64,000 bases of DNA from positions 1,054,001 to 1,118,000 of the forward strand of contig NZ_CP109994.1 in the NCBI RefSeq assembly GCF_025947065.1, written 5' to 3'. The first letter of the stretch is position 1. Each line of letters opens with the position of its first letter. Positions 7,060 through 50,573 of this stretch are shown piece by piece. Under the pieces are notes generated by a model, which was given only the letters and a program-made list of their open reading frames with translations, did no database searches and had not been told where the DNA came from. The translations under genes were made by a program, and so were the position numbers. Origin of the DNA: Flavobacterium sp. N1736. GTDB taxonomy: Bacteria; Bacteroidota; Bacteroidia; Flavobacteriales; Flavobacteriaceae.

Positions 7060-7123
7060 TCATACCTGTTTGTCATTTGTATGATACTGTTTGTCACTTC
7101 AATGATACTTTTTGTCATTTCGA
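7060..7123 (+). repeat. Three imperfect 21-bp tandem repeats
   Basis: Three consecutive units of about 21 bp, each reading roughly TGATACTGTTTGTCATTTCA, at 7060-7081, 7082-7102 and 7103-7123. The last unit runs into the left end of the MITE-like element starting at 7114, whose first bases (GTCATTTCGA) match the unit end. This may be a repeatedly extended element terminus. Confidence 0.7.
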
Positions 7124-7213
7124 CCGAAGGGAGAAATCACACTAGAAACTCCGCACAGAATGTCGCCAATCTTTGTCGAGTTTTAGTGAGGATGCTTCGT
7201 TCCTCGCAATGAC
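7114..7213 (-). repeat. MITE-like palindromic element, copy A
   Basis: A 100-bp element with terminal GTCATT and AATGAC ends. Its reverse complement aligns nearly base for base with the copy at 8627-8726 and shares internal blocks (GACAAAGATTGGCGA, AGAAATCACAC) with copies at 36821-37216 and 37858-37959. It is non-coding and intergenic. Confidence 0.85.
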
Positions 7214-8559: not shown

Positions 8560-8784
8560 TTTTCACGCAGATTTAAAATGATTTGAGCAGATTTTATTTT
8601 TTTATTTTTTAATCTTTTGCTAGTTTGTCATTGCGAGGAACGAAGCAACCTCACTAATACTCGACAAAGATTGACGATTTTGATTGCGGAGTTCCTTGTG
8701 CGATTTCTCTCTTCGGTCGAAATGACAAACTAAACTTTAACATTACAATAAAATCTGCTCAATCTGCCAAATCTGCGAGAAAAA
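8560..8784. repeat. CACGCAG/CTGCG palindrome interrupted by a MITE-like copy
   Basis: Outer arms TTTCACGCAGATTT (from about 8560) and AAATCTGCGAGAAAA (to about 8784) form a long imperfect inverted repeat of the same family as the near-perfect one at 25902-25995. The MITE-like copy at 8627-8726 sits in its loop, which looks like one repeat inserted in another. Confidence 0.75.
8627..8726 (+). repeat. MITE-like palindromic element, copy B
   Basis: A 100-bp element, GTCATTGCGAGG to GGTCGAAATGAC, in inverted orientation to copy A (7114-7213) and nearly identical to its reverse complement. It lies between the ApbE and PepSY reductase genes. Confidence 0.87.
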
Positions 8785-36686: not shown

Positions 36687-36820
36687 AATGATGTTTTTTA
36701 ATTGATTACTAGATTACTGAACAGTATTGTATGTTCAGCGTTTGAACCAAAATTAACTTTAAATGGAGCAAATTATCTTATAGTATTTAGAAAAATAGTT
36801 ACTTAATTATCATAGGATAT

Positions 36821-37216
36821 GTCATTTCGACTGAAGGGAGAAATCACACTCAGGAATCGACAAAGATTGGCGATTCTCGTTACGGAGTTTCATGTGCGAT
36901 TTCTCCCTTCGGTCGAAATGACAAAATTGGATTCTGATTGGGAATTATTGATTAAAATTCTTTTTTTTTGTCATTTCGACGGAGGAGAAATCACACTCAG
37001 GAATCGACAAAGATTGGCGATTCTCGTTATGGAGTTTCATGTGCGATTTCTCCCTTCGGTCGAAATGACAAAATTGGATTCTGATTGGGAATTATGGATT
37101 AAAATTCTTTTTTTTTGTCATTTCGACGGAGGAGAAATCACACTCAGGAATCGACAAAGATTGGCGATTCTCGTTACGGAGTTTCATGTGCGATTTCTCC
37201 CTTCGGTCGAAATGAC
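36821..37216 (+). repeat. Tandem triplication of a MITE-like element
   Basis: Three copies at 36821-36922, 36970-37069 and 37117-37216, separated by about 47-bp spacers that are also near-identical, giving a 147-149-bp period. Each copy has GTCATTTCGAC and GGTCGAAATGAC ends and an internal palindromic match. Copies 2 and 3 share the same 2-bp shortening (GACGGAGGAG), so copy 3 arose from copy 2 or the reverse. Confidence 0.95.
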
Positions 37217-37280
37217 AAAATTGGATTCTGATTGCGAATGATGGATTAATCCGTTGAAATATCAGAAACGCAAAATAAAG

Positions 37281-37857: not shown

Positions 37858-37959
37858 GTCTTTTCAACCGAAGGGAGAAATCGCACCAGAATTTCCGCAA
37901 GCAAAATCGCCAATCTTTGTAGAATTACTTGTGTGATTTCTCCCTTCGGTCGAAATGAC
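37858..37959 (+). repeat. MITE-like palindromic element, copy G
   Basis: A copy of the GTCATT...AATGAC family, slightly diverged at the left end (GTCTTTTCAACCG), with the conserved internal CGCCAATCTTTG. It lies upstream of the sigma factor promoter. Confidence 0.82.
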
Positions 37960-38058
37960 AAACGATATGCTAAATCATCAGAAATAGGAAAAAAAAGTGC
38001 GAATATTAATAAATTATTAAATGAATAAATCGTAAAAAATATCAATAACCGTTTATCT

Positions 38059-38066
38059 TACATTTG
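38059..38066 (+). promoter_or_regulatory. Bacteroidota -7 box for the ECF sigma factor gene
   Basis: TACATTTG matches TAnnTTTG exactly, 32 bp before the ATG at 38099. No good -33 TTG is visible. Confidence 0.6.
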
Positions 38067-38098: not shown

Positions 38099-38677
38099 AT
38101 GAGTTCTAATTTGGTATTAAGGTTACGAGAGGGAGATGATGCATGTTTTAAAGAAATTTATGATTTATATCATTACAAAGTGTTTTGCTTTGTTAAAAAA
38201 TACACGTCACAGCTTGCAGATTCAGAGGATGTTACTCAGAATGTGTTTATTCATTTATGGAATTACCGCACTAAATTGGACCCTGAGGTAAGTTTGGAAG
38301 CAATTTTGTTTAAAAGCTCAAAACAAGAGATTTCGAAATGGTACAAAAAGCAAAACAGAATATTTTCTGTAGAGAATGACCAATTGATTAAAGAGATGGA
38401 TTCTCCCTCAGAATCAGATGATAACTTTGATTTAAAACTCGAAAAAATTCAATATCTGCTGGATAAAATTCCTGAAAAAAGGAGAAAAATTTTCAACCTT
38501 CATAAATTTGAAGATCTTAGTTATAAAGAAATTGCGCAGGAAATGAATATGTCGCCAAGCGCAGTTGCGAATCAGATTTCAAAAACACTTCAATTTCTGA
38601 AAAAGAACTCGGTAAAAAATCACGAATTATATTGGTTTGCATTATTTTTTGTGAGTCAGCAAAATTTAATTACTTAA
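38099..38677 (+). CDS. ECF RNA polymerase sigma factor (FecI-like)
   Basis: A 192-residue sigma-70 family ECF factor. Region 2 (about 20-80; CFKEIYDLYHYKVFCFVKKY, DSEDVTQNVFIHLW) and region 4 (about 120-175; KRRKIFNLHKFEDLSYKEIA then MNMSPSAVANQISK) are complete. It is followed by a FecR anti-sigma gene, a TonB receptor with STN domain and outer-surface lipoproteins, as in ferric citrate-type cell-surface signalling. Ligand binding at the receptor should release the factor from FecR and turn on this locus. It has its own promoter; the 234-bp gap to fecR suggests separate or attenuated expression. Confidence 0.94.
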   Translation: MSSNLVLRLREGDDACFKEIYDLYHYKVFCFVKKYTSQLADSEDVTQNVFIHLWNYRTKLDPEVSLEAILFKSSKQEISKWYKKQNRIFSVENDQLIKEMDSPSESDDNFDLKLEKIQYLLDKIPEKRRKIFNLHKFEDLSYKEIAQEMNMSPSAVANQISKTLQFLKKNSVKNHELYWFALFFVSQQNLIT

Positions 38678-38911
38678 CATTCTTCGTTACTATTCTTTAC
38701 AATCATACATTATACTAAAATTATTTTATTTATTTTTTTCGGCTTTGTTTCAGGTGTTTAACCATGATAATAATGCTATATAAGTGTTTATATTACATTA
38801 AGAAAACGTTAATAGTAACATTGCCCCGTGACATTTATTTCATTGAAAATCTAATGTAACTGTATCGATAGTACAGGTTTTAATTTATCAATAGTAAACA
38901 TTTAAATTGTA

Positions 38912-39763
38912 ATGAAGTCAAAAAGGTTAAAGGACGAATGGAACGCAATACCAAACAGGGGAATTCTTCCGGATGAAGTTAAATCCCGAATGTGGAAAAA
39001 CATTCGTAATGTTACTGTTGATAAATATAGAAATGTATATAACTGGATTGCAGTTGCATGTGCTGTTTTTATTCTTTCGGTGGCTGGTTATTACAATTTT
39101 ATTCAATTTAATAATCGCCATAAAATTGAAATTGCGTCTACAAGAACATTCAATAAAGATATTCGATTATTGAATTTGCCTGACGGTACTCGTGTCTGGC
39201 TAAATGAAAATACTGAAATAGAATACCCTAAACAATTTACAGGAAAAGAAAGAAGGATTACTTTAAAAGGGGAAGCTTTTTTTGAGGTAAAACGTGATCC
39301 TTCGCATCCTTTTGTGATTAGTTCAGGCCCCATAAAAACGACGGTTTTAGGAACTTCTTTTAATGTTAAAGCTTACAATAATCATGTGCCGGAAGTTAAT
39401 GTGAGAACCGGAAAGGTAAAAGTAGAGACAGAAGAAAATACCGTTTTTTTAATACGCGGAGACAAAGCTGTTTATGGCGCCAAAACTGCGATGCTGAGCA
39501 AACAAAAAACAACTGTTTTAGAACCGAAATGGAAAAAAGTGCTGATGTATGTTGATGATTTAACGCTGGAACAGGTTATTGATAAGCTAAAAACAGATCA
39601 TAAGTTTGAAGTAACGTATCTGGATGAAAATTTGCGAAACCTGAAAATGCAGGGAACTCTTGATACAAGACAAGGTTTTTATGAAATGCTGCAAACAATT
39701 TCATTTGCACTGGAAATCAAGATTGAGCCTACAGGAAATAATACGTATCTCATTAGACACTAA
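38912..39763 (+). CDS. FecR-family anti-sigma regulator
   Basis: A 283-residue inner-membrane regulator. The cytosolic N-terminus (about 1-40) is followed by one helix (IAVACAVFILSVAGYYNFI), the FecR domain (about 75-170; LNLPDGTRVWLNENTEIEYP, GEAFFEVKRDPSHPF, TTVLGTSFNVKAY) and a C-terminal DUF4974-like domain (about 205-283; LTLEQVIDKLKTDHKF). It senses the TonB receptor STN domain in the periplasm and sequesters or activates the sigma factor encoded upstream. Tight genetic coupling with an ECF gene and an STN receptor supports a FecI-FecR-FecA-type circuit. Confidence 0.94.
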   Translation: MKSKRLKDEWNAIPNRGILPDEVKSRMWKNIRNVTVDKYRNVYNWIAVACAVFILSVAGYYNFIQFNNRHKIEIASTRTFNKDIRLLNLPDGTRVWLNENTEIEYPKQFTGKERRITLKGEAFFEVKRDPSHPFVISSGPIKTTVLGTSFNVKAYNNHVPEVNVRTGKVKVETEENTVFLIRGDKAVYGAKTAMLSKQKTTVLEPKWKKVLMYVDDLTLEQVIDKLKTDHKFEVTYLDENLRNLKMQGTLDTRQGFYEMLQTISFALEIKIEPTGNNTYLIRH

Positions 39764-39899
39764 ATAATTATAAACTTTTAATATAACAATTCTAGCCAAA
39801 ATCAAATTTGAGCTACCAGAGAAGTATTGCCCTATTTTAAGAATATTAACCCTAAATATCATATTAAAATTAATTCTAATAAACTAACAATTATCAATT

Positions 39900-42800
39900 A
39901 TGAACAATGATTTTTCCAGGCAATTTGCCATTTGGATTTTGTTTTTCGGTTTCCTTTTTGGAACACACACTATTTATTCGCAAACCGGAACTGTTTCGGT
40001 TGATTTTAAAAATTCTTCGCCTCAAAAAATAATAGATAATTTAAAATCTCAAACTCCGTATCAATTTATTTATCAAAAAGATCTCGATTTGAGTTTGCCA
40101 TTAGTTACATTAAAAAAAGAGAATGTTTCTATTGATGAAATTTTGACTGATTTGCAAAGTCTGACCAATTTAAATTTCAGAAGAAATCAAAATAATATAG
40201 CCGTAAACAGTAAAGATTCGGCGAAAAAAAAAAAGAAGGGAAAAATAACGGGTAAAGTCGTTGATGTAAACGGGCTTTCGCTTCCGGGCGTAAATATTAA
40301 AGTTGCGGGACTTAATTATGGTACGCAATCTGATATTGACGGTAATTATGTTCTGGAACTTGAAGCGGGCGAATACACGATTGAAATAAGCGCTATTTCG
40401 TTTCAGACACAAAAAATTACAAATGTAAAAGTTCTTGAAGACGAGGAAACGCCATTGGTTGTTTCGTTAAAAGAAGATGCACAATCGCTGAATGAAGTTA
40501 TCATTGTTCAGGATTATAAAAAAGCGACAGCTTCGGTTGAAGGAATGTTGTTGCAGCAAAAAAAAGCGCCACAATTTTCTGATGGTATTTCGGCAGAGCA
40601 AATTGCCAGAACGCCGGACAGGGATGTGGCGAGTTCATTAAAACGTATTACCGGTGTAACAACTGTGGGCGACAAATATGTTGTTGTACGCTCAATGGGC
40701 GAGCGATGGAATCAGGCGGTAATGGACGGAATTGCCTTGCCGAGTACGGATGCGTATCAGCAAAATTTTTCTTTTGATATTATTCCTACTTCTATTGTAG
40801 AGAGTATTGTGGTGAGTAAATCTGCCACTCCGGATATGTATGCCAATTTTGCCGGTGGATATGTCGAGGTTAAAACTAAGGATATTCCAAAAGAAAATTT
40901 TACCAATTTTTCTATCAGCACTGCTTATAATAGCAGAAGCACTTTTAAAGAAAGGCTTACAAAACAGGAAGGTGATTATGATTATTGGGGTTTTGATGAT
41001 GGAAGACGTGATTTTCCCAGTCCTGACAATCTTTCGGCAGCAAATGTAAAAAGCGACGCTGCAGACCCGAATATTTCTATTCAGCAATCAAAACAATTTA
41101 CTCAGGATAATTTTACGACTTATAAAACATATGCGGCTCCCGGCAGCACAATTCAGTTTGGAATAGGACGAACTTATAAGTTAGAAGACAGTAACAAATG
41201 GGGATTTGTAGGTTCTTTAATTTTTAAGAATACACAGGAAAAATTAGATATTGAACATACTGAAAGAGGTAAGTATAAAAGTAATACAGAGTTTTCTCCT
41301 GCAAACGAAACAGCGGCATACTCTACTTTTGAAAAATATGGTTTTAATAACTCCGGAGCAAACTATAATTATACGTCAACTTTAGGCGGTATGTTTAATG
41401 CGGCAATACAATTAGGAAATCATAAAATTACCAGCCGTAATACAGTAATGCATATCTATAACAGTCAATTAACCCAAATTACTGGCTGGGATAACGGAAT
41501 GGCGACTGATGGTATCGTAGATGGAAGTATATTAGCGAGAACCTCTGAAACCAATTATCCGGTTTATACCACTTTTATCCAAAATAAAATTGAGGGAAAT
41601 CACAAATTCGACAAATTAGAAATCAATTGGTATGGCGCTTACGGAAATGTTACAAAAGACACCAAAGATGCTACGTTTTTAAATATTGACAGAAGAAAAG
41701 TTGGAGACGATTTACTGGTTTATTATGATGTTTATAATGCAACTCAAAATATTAAGAGAAGTAATTTTACTAATGATGAGATTGATTATAATGCTGCTAT
41801 TAATTTTAAATATTCATTCAATTTTAGCGATTCTTTTACAAACGACATTAAAGCAGGATATTTTGGTACTTATAAAAAAGCAACCAATCAACAGGTATCA
41901 GTTAAATTAGAAACCTTTGGTCAAACAACAGACCGCGCCAGTATTTATGGTTCACTAACAGATTTTTTAGACGGTTCTAATTATTACTATGGCGGTTTTG
42001 GCTGGTTTGGTGGTTTAAAATATGGAAAACAATATGTTGGAGATGTAAAAGTACATTCGCCATTTTTAATGCTGGACAATAAAATGGGCCGATATGTAAG
42101 ATTCGTGTGGGGCGCAAGGGCAGAAAGTTATGTTTATACACAAATTGAAAGCCAGTCTATTGCTGCCGGCGATTTTGATCAGGAACAAAAAGATGATAAA
42201 GTATGGCAATTTTTACCTTCGGCCAGCTTAATTATTAGCCCAACTAATAAAATGAATGTAAGACTTGGTTATAACAAATCTGTTATGCGTCCTCAATTTG
42301 CAGAACGTTTGAATATCCCATATTTTGACCCAATTCGATCTTATTTTATTTATAATTATTCTGGGGGAATTGTTTCGAGTGTAGCCGATAATTATGATTT
42401 AAAATTAGAATGGTTCCCTTCAGGCGGCGAGATTTTGTCTTTTGGTGTATACCATAAAGATATAGATAATCCTATTGAAAGTGTTGGAGCTTTAAACACG
42501 TCCGGTGAGAGAAATGTTTATAATATCAATTCTTATAATGCTAATCTTTGGGGCTTTGAATTAGAATTTTATAAAAGTCTTTCTTTTTTAGGCGAAGGAG
42601 AAATCCTGAAAAATCTATTTGTTTACGGAAACGCGACTGTCAATTCTACAAAGGTAAAATCATATCAAAGACTAGACGGATCAGGTGTTCTTTATGAGGC
42701 AAACAGACCCTTATACGGGCAGTCGCCTTATAGCTATAATTTTGGTTTAGACTATGTGGGTGATCGTTTTGGGTTTAGCCTTAGACACAATGCTGTTGGT

Positions 42801-43133
42801 GATCAATATATACTTGTAGGATTTGATTACGGCGCCGAGGAAATTCGTAAACCTTATGGTATAACAGATGCTCAGGTGAGCTACAAATTTTTTAAAGAAA
42901 AGAATCTGGAATTAAAATGCAGCGCAAAAAATTTGTTTGACACAGGTATAGAAACCTATAACAACGTTAACAGTTATAGTACCAGACAGGACGTACCTGT
43001 TGGATCTAACCCAAGATCAGCCTTTGGTTTGGGAGCAGGAGCTACCAATAAATACGATCAGGATATTGATCAGGAATTATTTAAAGCAAAAAACGGAAGG
43101 ACTATAAGTATATCACTTAATTATTCCTTTTAA
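39900..43133 (+). CDS. STN-containing TonB-dependent receptor
   Basis: A 1077-residue outer-membrane receptor. Signal peptide (FGFLFGTHTIYSQ), STN signalling domain (about 30-105; SVDFKNSSPQKIIDNLKSQT), CarboxypepD_reg-like domain (about 115-195; GKVVDVNGLSLPGVNIKV), plug (about 215-330; RTPDRDVASSLKRITGVTT, VVVSKSATPDMYANFAGGYVEV) and a C-terminal barrel ending ISLNYSF. The STN domain signals through FecR encoded upstream. There is no SusD partner; instead the following genes encode duplicated surface lipoproteins. Ligand unknown: it could be a protein, peptide or metal complex. It is the central gene of a regulated uptake locus. Confidence 0.94.
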   Translation: MNNDFSRQFAIWILFFGFLFGTHTIYSQTGTVSVDFKNSSPQKIIDNLKSQTPYQFIYQKDLDLSLPLVTLKKENVSIDEILTDLQSLTNLNFRRNQNNIAVNSKDSAKKKKKGKITGKVVDVNGLSLPGVNIKVAGLNYGTQSDIDGNYVLELEAGEYTIEISAISFQTQKITNVKVLEDEETPLVVSLKEDAQSLNEVIIVQDYKKATASVEGMLLQQKKAPQFSDGISAEQIARTPDRDVASSLKRITGVTTVGDKYVVVRSMGERWNQAVMDGIALPSTDAYQQNFSFDIIPTSIVESIVVSKSATPDMYANFAGGYVEVKTKDIPKENFTNFSISTAYNSRSTFKERLTKQEGDYDYWGFDDGRRDFPSPDNLSAANVKSDAADPNISIQQSKQFTQDNFTTYKTYAAPGSTIQFGIGRTYKLEDSNKWGFVGSLIFKNTQEKLDIEHTERGKYKSNTEFSPANETAAYSTFEKYGFNNSGANYNYTSTLGGMFNAAIQLGNHKITSRNTVMHIYNSQLTQITGWDNGMATDGIVDGSILARTSETNYPVYTTFIQNKIEGNHKFDKLEINWYGAYGNVTKDTKDATFLNIDRRKVGDDLLVYYDVYNATQNIKRSNFTNDEIDYNAAINFKYSFNFSDSFTNDIKAGYFGTYKKATNQQVSVKLETFGQTTDRASIYGSLTDFLDGSNYYYGGFGWFGGLKYGKQYVGDVKVHSPFLMLDNKMGRYVRFVWGARAESYVYTQIESQSIAAGDFDQEQKDDKVWQFLPSASLIISPTNKMNVRLGYNKSVMRPQFAERLNIPYFDPIRSYFIYNYSGGIVSSVADNYDLKLEWFPSGGEILSFGVYHKDIDNPIESVGALNTSGERNVYNINSYNANLWGFELEFYKSLSFLGEGEILKNLFVYGNATVNSTKVKSYQRLDGSGVLYEANRPLYGQSPYSYNFGLDYVGDRFGFSLRHNAVGDQYILVGFDYGAEEIRKPYGITDAQVSYKFFKEKNLELKCSAKNLFDTGIETYNNVNSYSTRQDVPVGSNPRSAFGLGAGATNKYDQDIDQELFKAKNGRTISISLNYSF

Positions 43134-43173
43134 TATATCTGTAATAAAAGCATTCAGAAAAAGAAGAATTAAA

Positions 43174-43253
43174 ACCTAAGGAAAGATATTGCTGCTCTCT
43201 CTGAAGGTATTGTGTAATGACAGCAATTTTAGCAATAATTAAATACTATGATT
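43174..43253 (+). ncRNA. Structured 5' leader, copy 1
   Basis: ACCTAAGGAAAGATATT at 43174 onward, then stem ATTGCTG (43188-43194) and CAGCAAT (43221-43227) around a CTCTCTC loop, then AGCAATAATTAAA before the start codon. The same leader occurs before the paralog at 44871-44946. Probably a regulatory leader RNA of the lipoprotein genes; not in a family I recognise. Confidence 0.55.
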
Positions 43254-44552
43254 ATGAAAAAAATTTTTATGTTCGCAATGGCATCCCTGTTTATGAGTTC
43301 TTGCCAAAATGAAGATGCTTCATCTGCAGATTCTTCTTTTTCTATGAAAGCTTCTAAAGCCGATTATCTTGTGTCACTTCCAACAGAAAGCTTTTGTGGC
43401 GATATTACAACAAATACAACCTGGACAAACGACAAAGTTTGGGAAATTTGCGGTGTTGTTCGTGTAAAAAATGGCGCTACACTAACGATTCAACCCGGTA
43501 CTTATATTATAGCTGCACCTATATTAACTCTTGGTGACGCTCAGGGAATACTTGTCATTACAAAAACAGGTAAGATCGACGCGCAGGGAACTTTAACTGC
43601 ACCAATTATTTTTACAAGCCGTTATTTATTAGACGGAAATGTTAATACTACCGGTTCTCCCGGAGATTTTGGTGGTGTAGTAATTTTAGGAGATGCTCAG
43701 GTAAACAATGGTCTTACTACAAACATTGCCGAAGGATTAGGAGATCAGCTTAATGTTGCTGATTTTTATTATGGCGGTACAAATAATGTTCATAACGCTG
43801 GTATATTAAATTATGTACGCATTGAATTTGCCGGACGCATCTTAGATGTTAATAATGAAGTCAATTCGCTAAGCTTAGCGGGAGTAGGGAGCGGAACAGT
43901 GATAGACCATGTTCAGGCATCTTACGGTTTAGACGATTCATTTGAGTTTTTTGGCGGTACAGTCAATGCAGGCCACTTAGTTTCTTTTGCACCTAAGGAT
44001 GACAACTTCGATTTTGATTTAGGATATACAGGAACAATTACAAAAGCGATTGCAGTTGCAGATGGTGGTTCACAGCATAGTGATAGTAATGGATTTCCTG
44101 ATTCTGATGGTATTGAAGTAGACAATGGTTTAATGGCAACTTCAATTATAACGCGTCCTGTTCTTTCACAATTATCTATAATTGGTGTAAGCTCTTCTAC
44201 AGCTGCTGATGTATACGAAAGTGGTATTCATGTACGCAGATTTGGACAAATAAGATTAATTGATGCAACTGTTACAGGATACAATACAGGAATTAAATGG
44301 GATGTTCCTTCGGTGCCAACTAGTTCATCATGGTCAAGAATATCAATTCATGGATTTGATAATGTAGTATTACCGGCAGGAACAACTTTATCAGGATTAG
44401 GTAATTCAACTTCAACAGTAGATCCGGCAACTGCTTGGGGTCTTACACAGCCTTTCTTTAATAATGGAGCATTGAATTTTACAGGTGCAACCGGTGCATT
44501 TAGAACAGAAGCTCTTTGGACTAACGTCTGGACAAAGTTTACCAATTTTTAA
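43254..44552 (+). CDS. Surface-lipoprotein beta-helix-like protein, paralog 1
   Basis: About 432 residues from the second ATG (43254), which matches the start of the downstream paralog. MKKIFMFAMASLFMSSC is a lipoprotein signal with the Cys at 17, followed by QNEDASS, an acidic stretch like the Flavobacteriia surface-export signal. The rest is Gly/Thr/Asp-rich beta structure in repeated strands (GVVRVKNGATLTIQPGTYI, VITKTGKIDAQGTLTAPIIF, FGGTVNAGHLVSFAPKDDNFDFDLGY), consistent with a right-handed beta-helix. No enzyme motif. It directly follows the TonB receptor, so it is a likely surface-exposed ligand-capture partner in place of SusD. Confidence 0.85.
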   Translation: MKKIFMFAMASLFMSSCQNEDASSADSSFSMKASKADYLVSLPTESFCGDITTNTTWTNDKVWEICGVVRVKNGATLTIQPGTYIIAAPILTLGDAQGILVITKTGKIDAQGTLTAPIIFTSRYLLDGNVNTTGSPGDFGGVVILGDAQVNNGLTTNIAEGLGDQLNVADFYYGGTNNVHNAGILNYVRIEFAGRILDVNNEVNSLSLAGVGSGTVIDHVQASYGLDDSFEFFGGTVNAGHLVSFAPKDDNFDFDLGYTGTITKAIAVADGGSQHSDSNGFPDSDGIEVDNGLMATSIITRPVLSQLSIIGVSSSTAADVYESGIHVRRFGQIRLIDATVTGYNTGIKWDVPSVPTSSSWSRISIHGFDNVVLPAGTTLSGLGNSTSTVDPATAWGLTQPFFNNGALNFTGATGAFRTEALWTNVWTKFTNF

Positions 44553-44946
44553 TCGCAATATTATGCTAATGGTACAAATATTAAGAAACCGTTAACAACA
44601 AAATTAGGGGATGATATTTTGATTTTTCAAACGCTAATGTATTTAGTTGTAAGTATTAGATTTCTTTTTTGTTTAGTGCATGAAACAAAAATGCAAGAAA
44701 AGTACTTTAAGATGTTCTTTTAAAATTTAAGAGTAAAATTTAAAAGAATGGAAAGCCAGCCTTTCACTGCGTTAAAAAAAAACCTATGAGTGAAAGATGG
44801 AATATAGGTGTAAACCCCGGTGGTAAAGCGGGATCGTTTATTGAAAAGGACTTTACCAAAAACGAGAAAGACCTAAGGAAAGATATTTTGCTGCTCTCTC
44901 CAAAGGCCTAGTTTAATGCAGCAAATATAGCAATAATAAAATTATT
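44553..44946. other. Leader region with several potential stem-loops
   Basis: No ORF of note. CTTTCACT (44761-44768) pairs with AGTGAAAG (44789-44796), TGGTAAAG (44821-44828) with CTTTACCA (44851-44858), and CCTAT with ATAGG (44783-44808) offers an alternative. The final part holds the duplicated leader (44871-44946). The left 200 bp is AT-rich and featureless. Confidence 0.6.
44871..44946 (+). ncRNA. Structured 5' leader, copy 2
   Basis: ACCTAAGGAAAGATATTTTG at 44871 onward, then stem TTTGCTG (44887-44893) and CAGCAAA (44919-44925) around CTCTCTC, then AGCAATAATAAAA. Compared with copy 1, the outer A-T pair of the stem is replaced by T-A, a compensatory change that supports RNA pairing. Confidence 0.55.
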
Positions 44947-46260
44947 ATGAAAAAAATTTTTCTATGTGCAATGATAGCTCTGGCTGTGAGCTCTTGCCAA
45001 AATGATGATTCTTCTGCTGATTCTTCTTTTTCAATGAAAGCTTCAGGTGCTGATTACACTACTTATCCTACAATAACACAACCTGTTAGTGGTGATATTA
45101 CAACAAACACTACCTGGACTAGCGACAAAGTTTGGGAAATTGAAGGAGTTGTACGTGTAAAAAACGGAGCTACATTAACAATTGAAGCGGGTACATTTAT
45201 TAAAGCTAAACCTTTAGAGCCAGGAGTTGCTACAGGAGTTCTTGTAATTACTAAAACTGGTAAAATTGATGCACAAGGTACAGTTAATGCACCTGTTATT
45301 TTTACAAGTTACAATTTATTAGATGGCAACGCTGCTACAGCTGCTACTCCTGGAGACTTTGGAGGTGTTGTTATGTTAGGTACTGCTCCGGTAAATAACG
45401 GATTAGACGATAACATTATCGAAGGATTGGGAGATCAGCCTAATCTTTCTGATTTTTATTATGGAGGTAATGTAAGTGATCACAATGGTGGAGCTTTAAA
45501 TTATGTTCGTATCGAATTTGCAGGACGTATTATTACTACTTTGGTTGACGTAGAAATCAACGGATTAACTTTGGGTGGAGTTGGTTCTGGTACTACAATT
45601 GATCACGTACAAGTATCTTACGGTAGAGATGATTCATTCGAATTTTTTGGAGGAACAGTAAATGCTTCGCATTTAGTTTCTTTTGCTCCGGATGATGATA
45701 ACTTCGATTTTGATCTTGGATATACTGGTACAGTTACAAAAGCTATCGCAATTGCAGATAGTAATTCTACTCACAGTTTAAGCGGTGGTCTTCCGGATTC
45801 TAACGGTATTGAGTTAGATAACAATGCTACTGGTACAGCTAGTGCAACTGGAGTTATTACACGTCCTGTTCTTGATCAATTATCAATTATTGGTGTTAGT
45901 TCTTCTACAGTAGCTAATTTATACGAAAATGCTATCCACGTACGTAGATTAGGACAAATAAGATTAGTTGATGCTACTGTTACAGGATATAATACAGGAA
46001 TCAGATGGGAATCTCCTTCTTTGCCAGCTAATTCTTCATACTCTAGAATATCAGTTCACGGATTTGTAAATGTAGCTTTACCTGTAGGAACAGTTATATC
46101 AGGTCTTGGTACAAGTACTTCAACTGCAAATCCTGCAACTGCTTGGGGTCTTACTCAACCTTTCTTTAATAATGGTCCATTGGATTTCGCTGGTATTACC
46201 GGTGCATTCAAAAACGAAGCAACTTGGACTAATTCTTGGACAAAGTTTAGTAATTTTTAA
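44947..46260 (+). CDS. Surface-lipoprotein beta-helix-like protein, paralog 2
   Basis: A 437-residue paralog of the product at 43254, alignable along the whole length (DFGGVVMLGTAPVNNGL, FYYGGNVSDHNGGALNYVRI, HVRRLGQIRLVDATVTGYNTG). Signal MKKIFLCAMIALAVSSC with Cys at 17, then QNDDSS, a surface-export-like acidic tail. Both proteins end WTKF(T/S)NF. Codon choice is more AT-rich and uniform than in paralog 1, hinting at different expression. It has its own structured leader and a hairpin terminator at 46295. Presumably it and paralog 1 are co-receptors or alternative ligand binders for the upstream TonB receptor. Confidence 0.85.
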   Translation: MKKIFLCAMIALAVSSCQNDDSSADSSFSMKASGADYTTYPTITQPVSGDITTNTTWTSDKVWEIEGVVRVKNGATLTIEAGTFIKAKPLEPGVATGVLVITKTGKIDAQGTVNAPVIFTSYNLLDGNAATAATPGDFGGVVMLGTAPVNNGLDDNIIEGLGDQPNLSDFYYGGNVSDHNGGALNYVRIEFAGRIITTLVDVEINGLTLGGVGSGTTIDHVQVSYGRDDSFEFFGGTVNASHLVSFAPDDDNFDFDLGYTGTVTKAIAIADSNSTHSLSGGLPDSNGIELDNNATGTASATGVITRPVLDQLSIIGVSSSTVANLYENAIHVRRLGQIRLVDATVTGYNTGIRWESPSLPANSSYSRISVHGFVNVALPVGTVISGLGTSTSTANPATAWGLTQPFFNNGPLDFAGITGAFKNEATWTNSWTKFSNF

Positions 46261-46294
46261 TTTATACAGAGGTTAGTTTAGTTATTAAAACTTT

Positions 46295-46323
46295 ACATGG
46301 GCAGATTTTGTATCTGCCCATGT
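46295..46323 (+). terminator. Terminator after paralog 2
   Basis: ACATGGGCAGA, loop TTTTGTA, TCTGCCCATGT followed by TTTTAAAA: 11-bp GC-containing arms. It separates the lipoprotein pair from the T9SS cargo gene. Confidence 0.88.
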
Positions 46324-46355
46324 TTTAAAAAAATAAAATTTTAAAAAATAAAAAA

Positions 46356-47207
46356 ATGAAAAAAAATCTACTTTTATTACTATTTATAATGGTTACTACA
46401 CTATCATCTGCTCAATTTACAATATGGGAAGATGATTTTGACGATGCTGATGTTTCAGACTGGACTTTATTAGACAGAGATGGAAATGGCAGTAATTGGT
46501 ATGCACGTAAAAATATTCAGGTTGACGAAAATTTTGCTATTGTAGATGGAACTATTAGTGTTTTAGGAACATATAATATAGATTTTGCAACATTGGGACA
46601 ATTACCGGCTCCTGAGAATAATTTAGCCATAGCTCCTGTTATAGATGCTTCTTTTTATTCAGGAAAAATATCTCTAATCATAAATGCACAAACAAGCGTT
46701 TACGATAGCAGCCAAAATTTATTTGTTTACGGTTCTACTTCGCCAGATCCTGCAACATTTACACTTTTAAGCACAGTTGTTTTGGTAAGAACAGCAGATG
46801 AAGGAGAAATGTTTAAAAATTATACAGTAGATATTTCACAATATAAAGGAGAAACTGCAGTATACCTAGCTTTTGGAACTAAAACAAATTCAGGATTTAT
46901 TGGTTATGAAATTGATAAAATCTCGGTTACTGCCGAATCACTTTTAGGAGTTGATGATGTAGAACAACAATTGAAAGCGTGCAGATTAAACCAAAATCCG
47001 GTTCAGGAAAGTTTACAATTGCAATTAGCAGAAGAATTACAAAATGAAGAAACAGCATTAAAAATCTATAATGCAGCCGGAAGTTTGGTTAAAGAATCTC
47101 CATACAAACAAGAAGATTTATCTGTTACTGATTTACCACAAGGAATCTATTTTCTGGTAGTTTCTAATAATGAACTTTCGAAAAAAATAAAATTTATCAA
47201 AAAATAA
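46356..47207 (+). CDS. T9SS cargo protein with choice-of-anchor J domain
   Basis: A 283-residue secreted protein. Signal peptide MKKNLLLLLFIMVTTLSSAQ; a jelly-roll choice-of-anchor J domain (about 22-190; IWEDDFDDADVSDWTLLDRDG, EIDKISVTAE); and a type A T9SS C-terminal domain (about 205-283; LNQNPVQESLQLQL, LKIYNAAGSLVKE, LPQGIYFLVV, KKIKFIKK). It should be exported across the outer membrane by the type IX system and attached or released at the surface. Following the receptor and lipoprotein genes, it may be a secreted capture protein of the same locus. Confidence 0.92.
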   Translation: MKKNLLLLLFIMVTTLSSAQFTIWEDDFDDADVSDWTLLDRDGNGSNWYARKNIQVDENFAIVDGTISVLGTYNIDFATLGQLPAPENNLAIAPVIDASFYSGKISLIINAQTSVYDSSQNLFVYGSTSPDPATFTLLSTVVLVRTADEGEMFKNYTVDISQYKGETAVYLAFGTKTNSGFIGYEIDKISVTAESLLGVDDVEQQLKACRLNQNPVQESLQLQLAEELQNEETALKIYNAAGSLVKESPYKQEDLSVTDLPQGIYFLVVSNNELSKKIKFIKK

Positions 47208-47265
47208 TTTCGTTAACTCTTTCAGAATTTTCGATAACAAACTCTTACAATAAATAAAATTGAAT

Positions 47266-48054
47266 ATGAAGAATATATTGACAAGGATACTAATTTTCTC
47301 TGTAATATTGGTTTCTTTCGAATCCTGTACCAATGATAACCTGACTCCGCTTTATGGTACAGAAACCAACCAGCCCGGAAAAGTTGTTATAACTGGCTAT
47401 AGCGCGTTAAACGATTCCATTCAAATAAACATAAATGGAAAACTCCTTACAATAGGAAAAGAGAAAAAATCAGCCTTTACAAAAAAAATTGAAACAGAAT
47501 ATCAATTTGTTTATTACGGAGACAAAAACGAAACTTTTGAAGTTACCAATAAAGTAACCAAACAAATAGTACATACCTACAATTTTACGGCACAAAAACC
47601 AATCGATACACTTTCATTTTTTGCAAAAGAAAACATCTGGATCGAACATGTTTCGGCATTAAAACCGGGCGTATTAACTAAAACAGGCAATTGTGGGTAT
47701 AAATTTATATTTCCTACCCAAAACCTATATTCAAAAAGCGGATACGAAGGTACGATTGACGGAATCCTGCGCAAAATTAACGGACAAACAATTGGCGTAG
47801 TCGAGAATATCAACAAAGATAAATTCAGTTCATTTATTGAATTTCCGTTTAGCTCACCGCCAACTGTTTTAATGGAATTGGTAAAACACGGTACAACAGA
47901 ATCTTATATTCCGGGGCAAAAAGTGGTCGTTATATTGACAATGACAAATAACAAATCAAAACTAATTGTGCTCGATGAAAAACAAGATACAAACGGAGTT
48001 TTTTCAGGCGTAGACGGAACCCTGAATTTAGTTGATTATTTTGTTTTTAAATAA
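47266..48054 (+). CDS. Lipoprotein of unknown function
   Basis: About 262 residues from the ATG at 47266; the longer frame begins with TTG two codons earlier. MKNILTRILIFSVILVSFESC is a lipoprotein signal with Cys at 21, followed by TNDNLTP. The mature part is beta-rich (GKVVITGYSALNDSIQINI, KVVVILTMTNNKSKLIVLDE), with no recognisable enzyme motif. Probably outer-membrane anchored. It is 58 bp downstream of the T9SS cargo gene and 43 bp upstream of the protease gene, so it is in the same transcription unit. Confidence 0.78.
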   Translation: MKNILTRILIFSVILVSFESCTNDNLTPLYGTETNQPGKVVITGYSALNDSIQININGKLLTIGKEKKSAFTKKIETEYQFVYYGDKNETFEVTNKVTKQIVHTYNFTAQKPIDTLSFFAKENIWIEHVSALKPGVLTKTGNCGYKFIFPTQNLYSKSGYEGTIDGILRKINGQTIGVVENINKDKFSSFIEFPFSSPPTVLMELVKHGTTESYIPGQKVVVILTMTNNKSKLIVLDEKQDTNGVFSGVDGTLNLVDYFVFK

Positions 48055-48097
48055 TGAGATAGTGTTTAAGAGATATATTCATATTATAGATTTTAAA

Positions 48098-49459
48098 ATG
48101 AAAAATAAAGCGTTCAGCTATCTTTTTTATGGTGTTATTCTTTTAATAGAAGTTATCATTCTTTCTTCCTGCTCTACAGATGATCTGGAGCAGGATTACA
48201 CAGAAGGAACAAATGAATACACAAATGAATGGATGTATCAGCAAATGAAAAAATACTATTTGTGGAATGATGCTATGCCAAATCAGGGAGATTTATCCGT
48301 AAATCCCAAAGAATATTTTGCACGATTAGTAAAAAGCGATGATCGGTTTTCGTATGCAATACATCCTAATTTACCGGAAACGGCGCCGATAAATTTGCGT
48401 CAAAAATTCGGGTTTGATGTTTCATTTATGCAATATGAAAGCAAAGTTTACGGCGTAATTTTGTATGCATTATACGATTCTCCGGCAAAAAACAACGGTT
48501 TAACAAGAGGGCAATTAATAACAAGTGTTGACGGTGTCGAATTAACGGTAAGTAATTACGACAACATTTACAAAAACATGGTGACTGCAACGCAATTAAA
48601 CTTAAAACTAATTTCGTATTCAGCACAATCAGGATTTTTTAATGCAAAGCAAGTTTCTTTGATGCAGGGATTTTCGTTTTCGCAGCTGCTTTTAAGTCAG
48701 GTAATTACAAACGGAAATACTAAAATTGGTTATGTCGAAATTCCGCATTTTGATGTTGGAATGGCAAAATTATTTATGCAGACATTTCAGGAATTAAAAA
48801 ATAAGGAAATAACAGAAATCATTTTGGATTTGCGTTATAATGGAGGCGGAGATATAGCCTCGGCGACAGCATTAAGTATTATTTTGGCACCAAACATTAA
48901 ATCAGGCGATTTGTTTATTGAATTTGAAGGAAATAAAAATGGTGGTATTGTAAAACAGTCCTTTCAGCAGGCATTAGAAAGCAATGAAAAAAGTATAACT
49001 TTTGACGCTCTTAGAAATGCGCATCCAAATATTCAAAAAGTATATATTTTATGCGGAAAACATACTGCATCTGCCTCAGAAATAATAATAAACAATCTAA
49101 GCCCTTTTATGGATGTCGTAACAATAGGCGAAAAAACAATAGGTAAAGATGTAGCAGGATTTCCTATAGAAGATGACAGAATTTCCGGCACACAAGGCTG
49201 GGTTTTATATCCATCCATCTATAAATTATTCAATTCAAGACACGAAGGAAGTTATTCGGCAGGAATAAATCCCTCAGTTAATGCAGATGAACTGCAAAAT
49301 CCTGAAGTTTTTGCTTTAGGAAACCGTTCTGAAATTTTATTAAATACGGCGATAAACAACATATCAGGAAATACAGGTAAAATGAAAATGATAGAATCAA
49401 AAGCATTATCACTTTCTAAAATTTATACCGATGCCGATGCATTGCTGGTTAATCCGTAA
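48098..49459 (+). CDS. Lipoprotein S41-family (CtpA-like) peptidase
   Basis: About 453 residues from ATG 48098 (MKNKAFSYLFYGVILLIEVI); the longer frame from 48032 would hide the lipobox ILSSC. STDDLEQD after the Cys is acid-rich, suggesting surface exposure. A PDZ-like region (YDSPAKNNGLTRGQLITSVDG) precedes the S41 core: DLRYNGGGDIASATAL, the nucleophile block HTASASEIIINNL (second Ser codon 49076) and the Lys region GEKTIGKDVAGFP. It probably cleaves captured proteins or peptides at the surface before TonB uptake. It ends the locus. Confidence 0.9.
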   Translation: MKNKAFSYLFYGVILLIEVIILSSCSTDDLEQDYTEGTNEYTNEWMYQQMKKYYLWNDAMPNQGDLSVNPKEYFARLVKSDDRFSYAIHPNLPETAPINLRQKFGFDVSFMQYESKVYGVILYALYDSPAKNNGLTRGQLITSVDGVELTVSNYDNIYKNMVTATQLNLKLISYSAQSGFFNAKQVSLMQGFSFSQLLLSQVITNGNTKIGYVEIPHFDVGMAKLFMQTFQELKNKEITEIILDLRYNGGGDIASATALSIILAPNIKSGDLFIEFEGNKNGGIVKQSFQQALESNEKSITFDALRNAHPNIQKVYILCGKHTASASEIIINNLSPFMDVVTIGEKTIGKDVAGFPIEDDRISGTQGWVLYPSIYKLFNSRHEGSYSAGINPSVNADELQNPEVFALGNRSEILLNTAINNISGNTGKMKMIESKALSLSKIYTDADALLVNP

Positions 49460-49493
49460 ATAAAAATTTCTATTCAATATCAGAGAATATACT

Positions 49494-49784
49494 ATGCAAG
49501 GAATAAGTTCTACAGAGCATCGAATTTTATTGGCCGCATTTCGCAAATTCGAATACATGTCTAAAATTGCCGGCGACCAGATAGAAGAAACAGAAGACGC
49601 AAAAACAAGAAAAGCAATGGAAGAACTTGACTTGCTTTATGATAAATTTCAACTATTATTTGGAGAATTAGAAAGATGTACCAAAGATTATGAACTCAAA
49701 AAAAAATCTACACGAAGCATAATCAACAGAAGCACCCGAAAATTAATGCAGGTATTGCAAAATGTAGATGATACGATAAATTAG
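49494..49784 (+). CDS. Small helical protein (96 residues)
   Basis: A 96-residue, mostly helical protein with heptad-like patterns (ALLAAFRKFEYMSKIA, MEELDLLYDKFQLLFGELERC) and a basic C-terminal segment (KKKSTRSIINRSTRKLMQVL). No signal peptide or membrane segment. It is 34 bp after the protease gene on the same strand, so possibly co-transcribed, but it resembles a free-standing cytosolic coiled-coil protein. I do not recognise a family. Confidence 0.6.
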   Translation: MQGISSTEHRILLAAFRKFEYMSKIAGDQIEETEDAKTRKAMEELDLLYDKFQLLFGELERCTKDYELKKKSTRSIINRSTRKLMQVLQNVDDTIN

Positions 49785-49869: not shown

Positions 49870-50033
49870 TTCGTATGATTTATTTCCAATGTTAAGTTTT
49901 TGCCCAAACTAAAAGCTTAACATTGGCGCGTGATTTTTAGCAGTATATTTGTTAATGATTTATTAACATTAAATTAAAGTAACAATAACTTTAATGCAAA
50001 AACACTTGAAATCCTAAAATAAATACGTGCCGC

Positions 50034-50573
50034 ATGAAAGAAAATGACATTACAAATGCCCAGGACCAAACTGAAAACAGCAATGTAACTGCTGTAGAAG
50101 AAAACCCAACAAACAACACTGCTGAAACAACTGCCAGCGAAACAGATTCGACTAAAAGAGAAACTGAAACAAAAGTTACCAATACAAGAAAGAAACCTGC
50201 TGCAAAAGTTGTAAAAACACCAACAGTTTCAACATCAGATAATGTAGAACAAACTGAAGAAGTAGTTTCACCGGAAGTTTCAACAGAAACCGAAGAAACT
50301 GTTTCTGAAGACGAAGATAAATCTAATACTAAAAAGAAGAATAAAAAGATGAAAGAAAAAGAGAAAGAAAAAGAGAAAAAGAAAAAACAAGTAGCTAAGA
50401 AAAAAGAAAAAGCGAAAGAAGATAAAAAGAAAGATAAAGCGAAAAAAGCAAAGCAAAAAGCGAATGCTAAAAAGAAAGCAAAAGCGAAAAAAGCAAAAGA
50501 TAAAGCAAAAGCAAAGAAAATTGCTAAAAAGAAAGCTAAAAGAGCAAAGTCTAAATCGAAAAAGAAAAAATAA
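50034..50573 (+). CDS. Lys/Ala-rich histone-H1-like protein
   Basis: A 179-residue low-complexity protein. Residues 1-75 are acidic and Thr/Glu/Asn-rich (TETEETVSEDEDK-like); from about 100 to the end it is almost entirely K and A with a few E, D and S (KKKAKAKKAKDKAKAKK). This is the design of bacterial histone H1-like or AlgP-type DNA-binding proteins. The acidic N-terminus may modulate binding. No signal or membrane segment. The poly-A-rich DNA reflects Lys codons; a frameshift is not evident. A bidirectional terminator follows. Confidence 0.72.
   Translation: MKENDITNAQDQTENSNVTAVEENPTNNTAETTASETDSTKRETETKVTNTRKKPAAKVVKTPTVSTSDNVEQTEEVVSPEVSTETEETVSEDEDKSNTKKKNKKMKEKEKEKEKKKKQVAKKKEKAKEDKKKDKAKKAKQKANAKKKAKAKKAKDKAKAKKIAKKKAKRAKSKSKKKK

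Follow-up and report, generated by a model that had tools for sequence, protein, structure and literature searches.

A conserved Flavobacterium receptor–lipoprotein operon, probably PUSIII, with a putative leader RNA upstream of its beta-helix lipoprotein

Gene content and conservation of the block

We analysed a 64,000-nucleotide stretch of Flavobacterium sp. N1736 (positions 1,054,001–1,118,000 of its single-contig 5.1 Mb genome; hereafter, the window) and describe a gene block at 38099–49784 that centres on a TonB-dependent receptor. Every block gene lies on the + strand. The genes encode, in order, an extracytoplasmic function (ECF) sigma factor, a FecR-type anti-sigma factor, the receptor, two lipoproteins, a protein with a sorting signal for the type IX secretion system (T9SS), a small lipoprotein, an S41 protease lipoprotein, and a 96-residue protein. 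An earlier note on this DNA, made from the letters alone, had placed and labelled these genes correctly, with qualifications that concern an STN domain, a choice-of-anchor J assignment, the lipoprotein family, and the end of the block. It ended the block at 49459, one gene short of the conserved boundary at 49784. The named relatives of window proteins, in the lists examined, come from Flavobacterium or Flavobacteriaceae.

The sigma factor (38099–38677; Pfam accessions PF08281, E 3e-16, and PF04542) and the FecR protein (38912–39763; PF04773, E 6e-18, and PF16344) form the regulatory pair of FecIRA-type cell-surface signalling. The adjoining receptor (39900–43133, 1077 residues; PF00593, PF07715, and PF13715) has no sequence relative in PDB at E up to 0.001. 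It had been called an STN receptor; the receptor assignment holds, whereas the STN domain (PF07660) scores 22.3 bits, just under its cut-off of 28.4. SusC/SusD loci likewise combine a receptor with a surface lipoprotein and are sometimes under FecI/FecR-type control. The window receptor, however, is far under the cut-off of the SusC signature (TIGR04056, 50.4 bits against 368), profile searches found no SusD family match within the block, and the partner lipoprotein is modelled as a beta-helix. The combination described in the earlier note, a sigma/anti-sigma pair, an adjoining TonB receptor, and a surface lipoprotein partner other than SusD, is thus present, and it is conserved as one block.

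The two lipoproteins, copy A (lpA; 43248–44552, with an ATG at 43248 or 43254) and copy B (44947–46260), are of the type named FI. They are 73% identical to each other, and both have a precomputed assignment to PF28492. Copy B is predicted to fold as a right-handed beta-helix, in keeping with the earlier description of two paralogous beta-helix-like lipoproteins. PF28492 is a large family (7190 proteins at E <= 0.001 among 8000 candidates scored). FI has no sequence relative in PDB at E up to 1, and its model has no Foldseek match at E <= 0.001 (sequence identity about 10%). An FI-family gene lies directly 3' of a TonB-dependent receptor in 13 of 20 loci from other genera, a set hand-picked from search matches rather than random, in which some loci have a genus in common. 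This association suggests that non-SusD partners of the FI family are widespread among the TonB receptors of Bacteroidota.

The T9SS cargo (46356–47207) carries a type A C-terminal sorting domain (TIGR04183, 40 bits, cut-off 23). Its choice-of-anchor J label does not hold at the curated threshold, since the protein scores 28.8 against a cut-off of 30 for NF038128, and we refer to it as choice-of-anchor J-like. The small lipoprotein lpS (47266–48054) is a predicted beta-sandwich (mean predicted local distance difference test score 89). Its relatives number 110 proteins including itself, and all organism names given for them are Flavobacterium; a search against PDB sequences returned four matches, at E 0.11–0.9. 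The S41 protease lipoprotein (48101–49459; PF03572, E 4e-18, and PF18294) is of the C-terminal-processing type. The final conserved gene (49494–49784) encodes the 96-residue protein, for which family profile searches gave no match. A comparison with the NCBIfam pair GFO_1087 (S41 peptidase) and GFO_1088 (sigma factor) was dropped, as the scores are far under the cut-offs (232 against 455 and 81.5 against 130).

We compared the block by tblastn with small-lipoprotein neighbourhoods in other Flavobacterium genomes and with 40 named loci found via the receptor. Seven loci obtained twice (L035, L036, L037, L039, L040, L041, and L044) were excluded before counting, and the counts below refer to 44 non-redundant relative loci. 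The full set of seven gene types (sigma, FecR, receptor, FI, T9SS cargo, small lipoprotein, and S41) is found at 39 of these loci. Gene order is constant in the 39 complete loci, 29 of which have a detectable 96-residue protein; the exception is L073, in which the 96-residue gene precedes S41. Only the sigma gene went undetected at L085, contig ends interrupt the block at L051 and L056, and neither an FI-family lipoprotein nor an S41 protease was detected at L045 and L074.

The FI duplication is a variant, found in the window and at six of the 44 loci. In a quick FastTree phylogeny, whose support values were not inspected, most A copies (window, L042, L050, L061, and L084) group with the single copy of L080, and the A copies of L079 and L059 are placed apart. 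One old duplication, recurrent duplications, and loss cannot be separated on these sequences. Copy A has two cysteines (FCGDIT...EICGVV, 43390–43460) near the start of the helix that copy B lacks.

Correspondence to PUSIII and proposed function

The block matches, gene for gene, an operon already described in F. johnsoniae. According to Lidbury et al. 2020 (PMC8115612), PUSIII comprises Fjoh_3859–3851. The listed products are a sigma factor (Fjoh_3859), FecR (Fjoh_3858), the receptor (Fjoh_3857), lipoprotein FI (Fjoh_3856), a T9SS protein and a lipoprotein (Fjoh_3855 and Fjoh_3854), an S41 protease (Fjoh_3853), and a polyphosphate-kinase-like protein (Fjoh_3851). In F. johnsoniae, expression of the operon rises when phosphate is depleted (Table 1 of PMC8115612). 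The window has these genes in identical order (sigma–FecR–receptor–FI–T9SS cargo–lipoprotein–S41), and its sigma factor, receptor, and FI copy B are the counterparts of Fjoh_3859, Fjoh_3857, and Fjoh_3856. Protein by protein, an F. johnsoniae-like locus (L038) is 45–81% identical to the window along the block; its gene order matches Fjoh_3859–3851 and ends in a polyphosphate kinase 1 gene. Published work detected FI (Fjoh_3856) at the cell surface and saw its membrane level reduced in lolA and csl mutants (PMC7807042).

This gene-for-gene match identifies the locus as an already described system. We consider it probable that the block is this strain's copy of the phosphate-starvation uptake operon PUSIII and that it works as proposed below, with induction known from F. 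johnsoniae. The refuting test set by the earlier note, a lack of co-conservation or co-regulation, instead pointed to a single co-conserved unit that is co-regulated in that species. The earlier note's capture-and-import machine is upheld in outline; its view that the ligand class was wholly unknown, perhaps protein, gives way to the phosphate induction of the orthologous operon. An 'unknown capture machine' thus becomes a named, testable phosphate-starvation operon.

The window differs from PUSIII in its second FI copy and in having no terminal polyphosphate kinase gene. Polyphosphate kinase is one listed PUSIII gene, outside the core, and the window's genome has two PP_kinase matches, at 1.97 and 2.16 Mb. 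Beyond the published description, our analysis adds the FI duplication and the extra gene, three promoters with candidate Pho boxes, the link between the FI family and receptors beyond the genus, and a leader element upstream of FI. Neither the leader element nor the candidate Pho boxes appear in the excerpts of PMC8115612.

We propose that, at low phosphate, PhoB would turn on the sigma/FecR pair and FI. As an abundant, surface-exposed beta-helix lipoprotein, FI would capture a phosphorus-bearing organic ligand and deliver it to the TonB receptor. The N-terminal region of the receptor may signal to FecR and the sigma factor that it is occupied, and operon expression would thereby be amplified. 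Auxiliary surface roles would fall to the T9SS cargo and the small lipoprotein, which the S41 protease may mature or shed, and a 5' leader RNA with three pseudoknots may adjust FI output. Because low phosphate induces the operon in F. johnsoniae, a phosphorus-bearing ligand is a better guess than protein and the more likely one.

Related loci in the same genome place the block in context. One (L021) has genes in the order of PUSIV (PhoBR–OprP–receptor–FII): a PhoR/PhoB-like pair (best family matches under curated cut-offs), a glycosyltransferase and an OprP-like porin assigned by reading, and then a receptor and an FII-type lipoprotein. As in the window, a TonB receptor is followed by an FI-family lipoprotein, with 23% identity to the window block for the receptor and 29% for the lipoprotein. 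Unlike the window block, L021 has no adjacent sigma/FecR pair, T9SS cargo, or protease. A PUSI-like block encodes a sigma factor, FecR, a receptor above the SusC cut-off, and a glycerophosphodiesterase-like protein (under its cut-off); its SusD-like and metallophosphatase-like genes were assigned by reading only. A paralogous locus (L018, 1976000–1995900) has a divergent sigma gene, FecR, a receptor (about 46–49% identical), T9SS cargo, and a small lipoprotein, with no PF28492-type and no S41 match. Since L018 retains the receptor, T9SS cargo, and lpS without FI or the protease, these three look like the core of such loci, and FI and the protease like a separate module.

A more distant parallel is ElpS (CC_0171) of Caulobacter crescentus, a phosphate-starvation surface lipoprotein encoded next to a TonB receptor, whose release is blocked by protease inhibitors (PMC2996285). 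ElpS has a type II secretion system neighbourhood, in contrast to the T9SS at the window locus, and the sequence relation given in the excerpts of PMC8115612 is 31–36% over about half.

Several points weigh against the proposed function. No phosphatase activity was seen for ElpS itself, and its deletion left the activity unchanged (PMC2996285). No ligand is reported for any FI-family protein in the literature that we found. Finally, polyphosphate kinase is not among the open reading frames past 49784 up to 54 kb.

Among other functions, an FI that acts as a lyase- or epimerase-like beta-helix and releases phosphorylated glycans, as part of a polysaccharide or cell-wall glycan system, survives best, and we regard it as unlikely. 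The shared beta-helix says nothing about function, given the low identity and the absence of Foldseek matches described above, and carbohydrate-enzyme families went unmatched in the profile searches.

Protein import and iron uptake were the first functions considered, because of the S41 and FecI/FecR labels. S41 enzymes of the C-terminal-processing type usually process the tails of the cell's own proteins, which counts against a scheme in which the lipoproteins and T9SS cargo bind protein, S41 cuts it, and the receptor imports the peptides. Such a scheme also fits poorly with L018, which keeps the receptor, T9SS cargo, and small lipoprotein but neither the protease nor FI. Both functions were set back by the PUSIII expression table, and phosphate induction speaks against peptide capture in particular, as does the tight repression reported, under limitation of nitrogen and of iron, for P-responsive loci whose function is unknown (PMC8115612). 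We consider peptide capture very improbable. Iron or haem uptake under FecI/FecR control is less credible still: FecI/FecR-type regulators are present, but such pairs also adjoin SusC-type loci, including the PUSI-like block here. Leptospira LipL48, presumably a distant FI-family member, is a point in favour of iron. LipL48 shares a PerR-controlled operon with a TonB receptor (excerpt of PMC7567364). Counting against iron, the table of PMC8115612 lists four relevant TonB-dependent transporters, including Fjoh_3857.

A conserved structured element upstream of FI

We identified a conserved structured element of about 172 nt before FI copy B (44760–44931, read on the + strand from its gene context) that is predicted to form three consecutive H-type pseudoknots. 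Mean pairwise identity across 40 sequences is 0.694, against 0.381 in the remainder of the same gap and 0.389–0.506 in comparison regions upstream of the receptor, fecR, and sigma genes. The pseudoknots are built from helices P1–P6, of which P5 is in two parts. In the first, ACCUAU/AUAGGU crosses CUUUCAC/GUGAAAG; in the second, GGUAAAG/CUUUACC crosses CCCG/CGGG; and in the third, the loop UUGCUGC of a two-part stem pairs with GCAGCAA. P6 lies 20–22 nt before the FI start codon in 40 sequences and is nearly invariant, its sole exchanges being U-A to U-G at one pair.

Covariation was assessed in two alignments. The first, a plain MAFFT alignment, has 37 sequences; 88.0% of its cells are paired, and covariation is 0.146 against 0.103 after shuffling (reached by 0 of 500 shuffles); structures shifted by 1–3 columns pair in just 35–53% of cells. 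A covariance model with nested helices only, built from this alignment, gave a second alignment of 41 sequences, four of which the model found outside the 37 used to build it. This alignment left out L085, which lacks the element, together with L056 and the A-copy leaders, which gave weak or no matches. Here 90.6% of cells are paired, covariation is 0.162 against 0.099 (0 of 500), and two-sided change is seen at 18 pairs, compared with 11.1 after shuffling (0 of 500). The three helices that cross the nested ones are absent from the model; they are paired in 91.8% of cells and include six two-sided pairs, a number reached by 2 of 500 shuffles. P2 is the weakest helix (79% paired). On the receptor tree many pairs switched state more than once, with 5, 8, and 7 changes at three pairs of P1.

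The element is tied to the operon in its distribution. At E <= 0.01 the model detects it in 10 of 150 Flavobacterium genomes; these are exactly the ones with the close small-lipoprotein orthologue, and 12 of 12 matches in this search lie in a PUSIII-type operon. The F. johnsoniae-like locus L038 also carries the element. Among 299 family genomes from 236 genera it was found in the window's genome only, under strict filters that lose weak matches. Within that genome the element before copy B scores 178.5 bits. A shortened leader before lpA (43172–43230, + strand) retains the third pseudoknot only (loop UUGCUGC, partner ACAGCAA) and is a weak match at 43.5 bits; a third match is at chance level (E 0.35). 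A weak match at L074 (28.2 bits, E 0.0096) was left uncounted. Rfam 15 gave no match above its gathering score (best overlapping match 17.4 bits, E 1.8), and an open-access search of the structured-RNA literature on flavobacteria found the element unmentioned in titles or abstract starts of the papers listed (12 of 16).

We favour a sense reading, given the constant position and spacing of the element ahead of FI and its shortened copy before the second FI gene. It may be a 5' leader RNA that tunes FI output through mRNA stability, translation, or a switch. The chances are about even that it represents a new class of bacterial cis-acting RNA that controls how much of the most abundant phosphate-starvation surface protein is made, through mRNA stabilisation, translational gating, or the sensing of a phosphate-related signal. 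If so, it would be an uncatalogued regulatory RNA that could explain why one operon gene dominates the exoproteome, and it would offer a handle on post-transcriptional control in Bacteroidota.

Several observations weigh against a sense RNA, and some of them would suit a DNA element or an antisense RNA. P5 has 74 A.C cells and 1 G.U cell, and A.C on this strand would be G.U on the other; P2 and P4 also show an A.C excess (21 against 13). Folding energy is lower for the reverse strand in 39 of 41 sequences, and the nested fold has no unusual stability (minimum free energy z -0.53). Counted as tree events, the two wobble types are about equal (33 and 35) and do not settle the strand. Further pair types do not exceed shuffles in the 37-sequence alignment (276 of 500 reach the count) and show no clear excess in the 41-sequence alignment (33 of 500). 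P1, P3, and P6 together, however, have 33 G.U against 5 A.C cells on the + strand. Together with the constant spacing between P6 and the FI start codon and the shortened copy in the same place before lpA, this makes a DNA element or antisense RNA doubtful, and we favour the sense leader.

Candidate Pho boxes and other motifs

Pairs of TTAA words 11 bp apart, spaced as in a Pho box, occur at three promoters of the operon, all on the + strand. The candidate box in the sigma-gene promoter (38006–38024) has counterparts before the sigma gene in 39 of 41 loci and is followed by a -7-like TACATTTG (38059–38066), judged by the -7 consensus. The candidate box before fecR, TTAAGAAAACGTTAA (38798–38812), recurs in 40 of 42 loci, and that before FI copy B, TTAAGAAACCGTTAACAA (44581–44598), in 40 of 42 FI upstream regions. 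Upstream of the receptor, TTAA-N7-TTAA is present in just 2 of 43 loci.

Across the 64-kb window, the loose TTAA-N7-TTAA pattern gives 20 strand matches. Its strict form, TTAAGAAANNNTTAA, occurs at 5 sites in the whole genome against 31 for a reversed control: two in the operon, one each before the PUSI-like fecR and the oprP gene of the PUSIV block, and one at a further locus (L104). The F. johnsoniae-like genome has 10 strict sites against 29 reversed. Three of these ten lie in PUSIII or PUSIV, the strict pattern is not exclusive to PUS loci, and oprP is not induced in F. johnsoniae according to the excerpts of PMC8115612, although the PUSIV site precedes it. These observations count against PhoB control through the motif. 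Given the absence of oprP induction from the published data, the TTAA pair stays a candidate Pho box. An open-access literature search for a Bacteroidetes Pho box returned only an unrelated Burkholderia paper.

L104 (1582000–1598000 of the same genome) encodes a sigma factor, FecR, and a receptor together with a small lipoprotein-like gene, and its strict box lies 92 bp before the sigma gene. Downstream of the block, three TTAA words 11 bp apart (49952–49977) resemble the operon's candidate Pho boxes and precede a gene for a lysine-rich 179-residue protein (50034–50573).

We also detected a palindromic repeat in the window. One arm, CTTCGGTCGAAATGAC, has ten matches in the window at up to 2 mismatches (0.04 expected by chance), and a 147-bp tandem array with 2.9 copies accounts for six of these. 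The matches lie at 36820–37249, 37858–37959, 7114–7129, and 8711–8726, with the end of one match 140 bp before the sigma gene.

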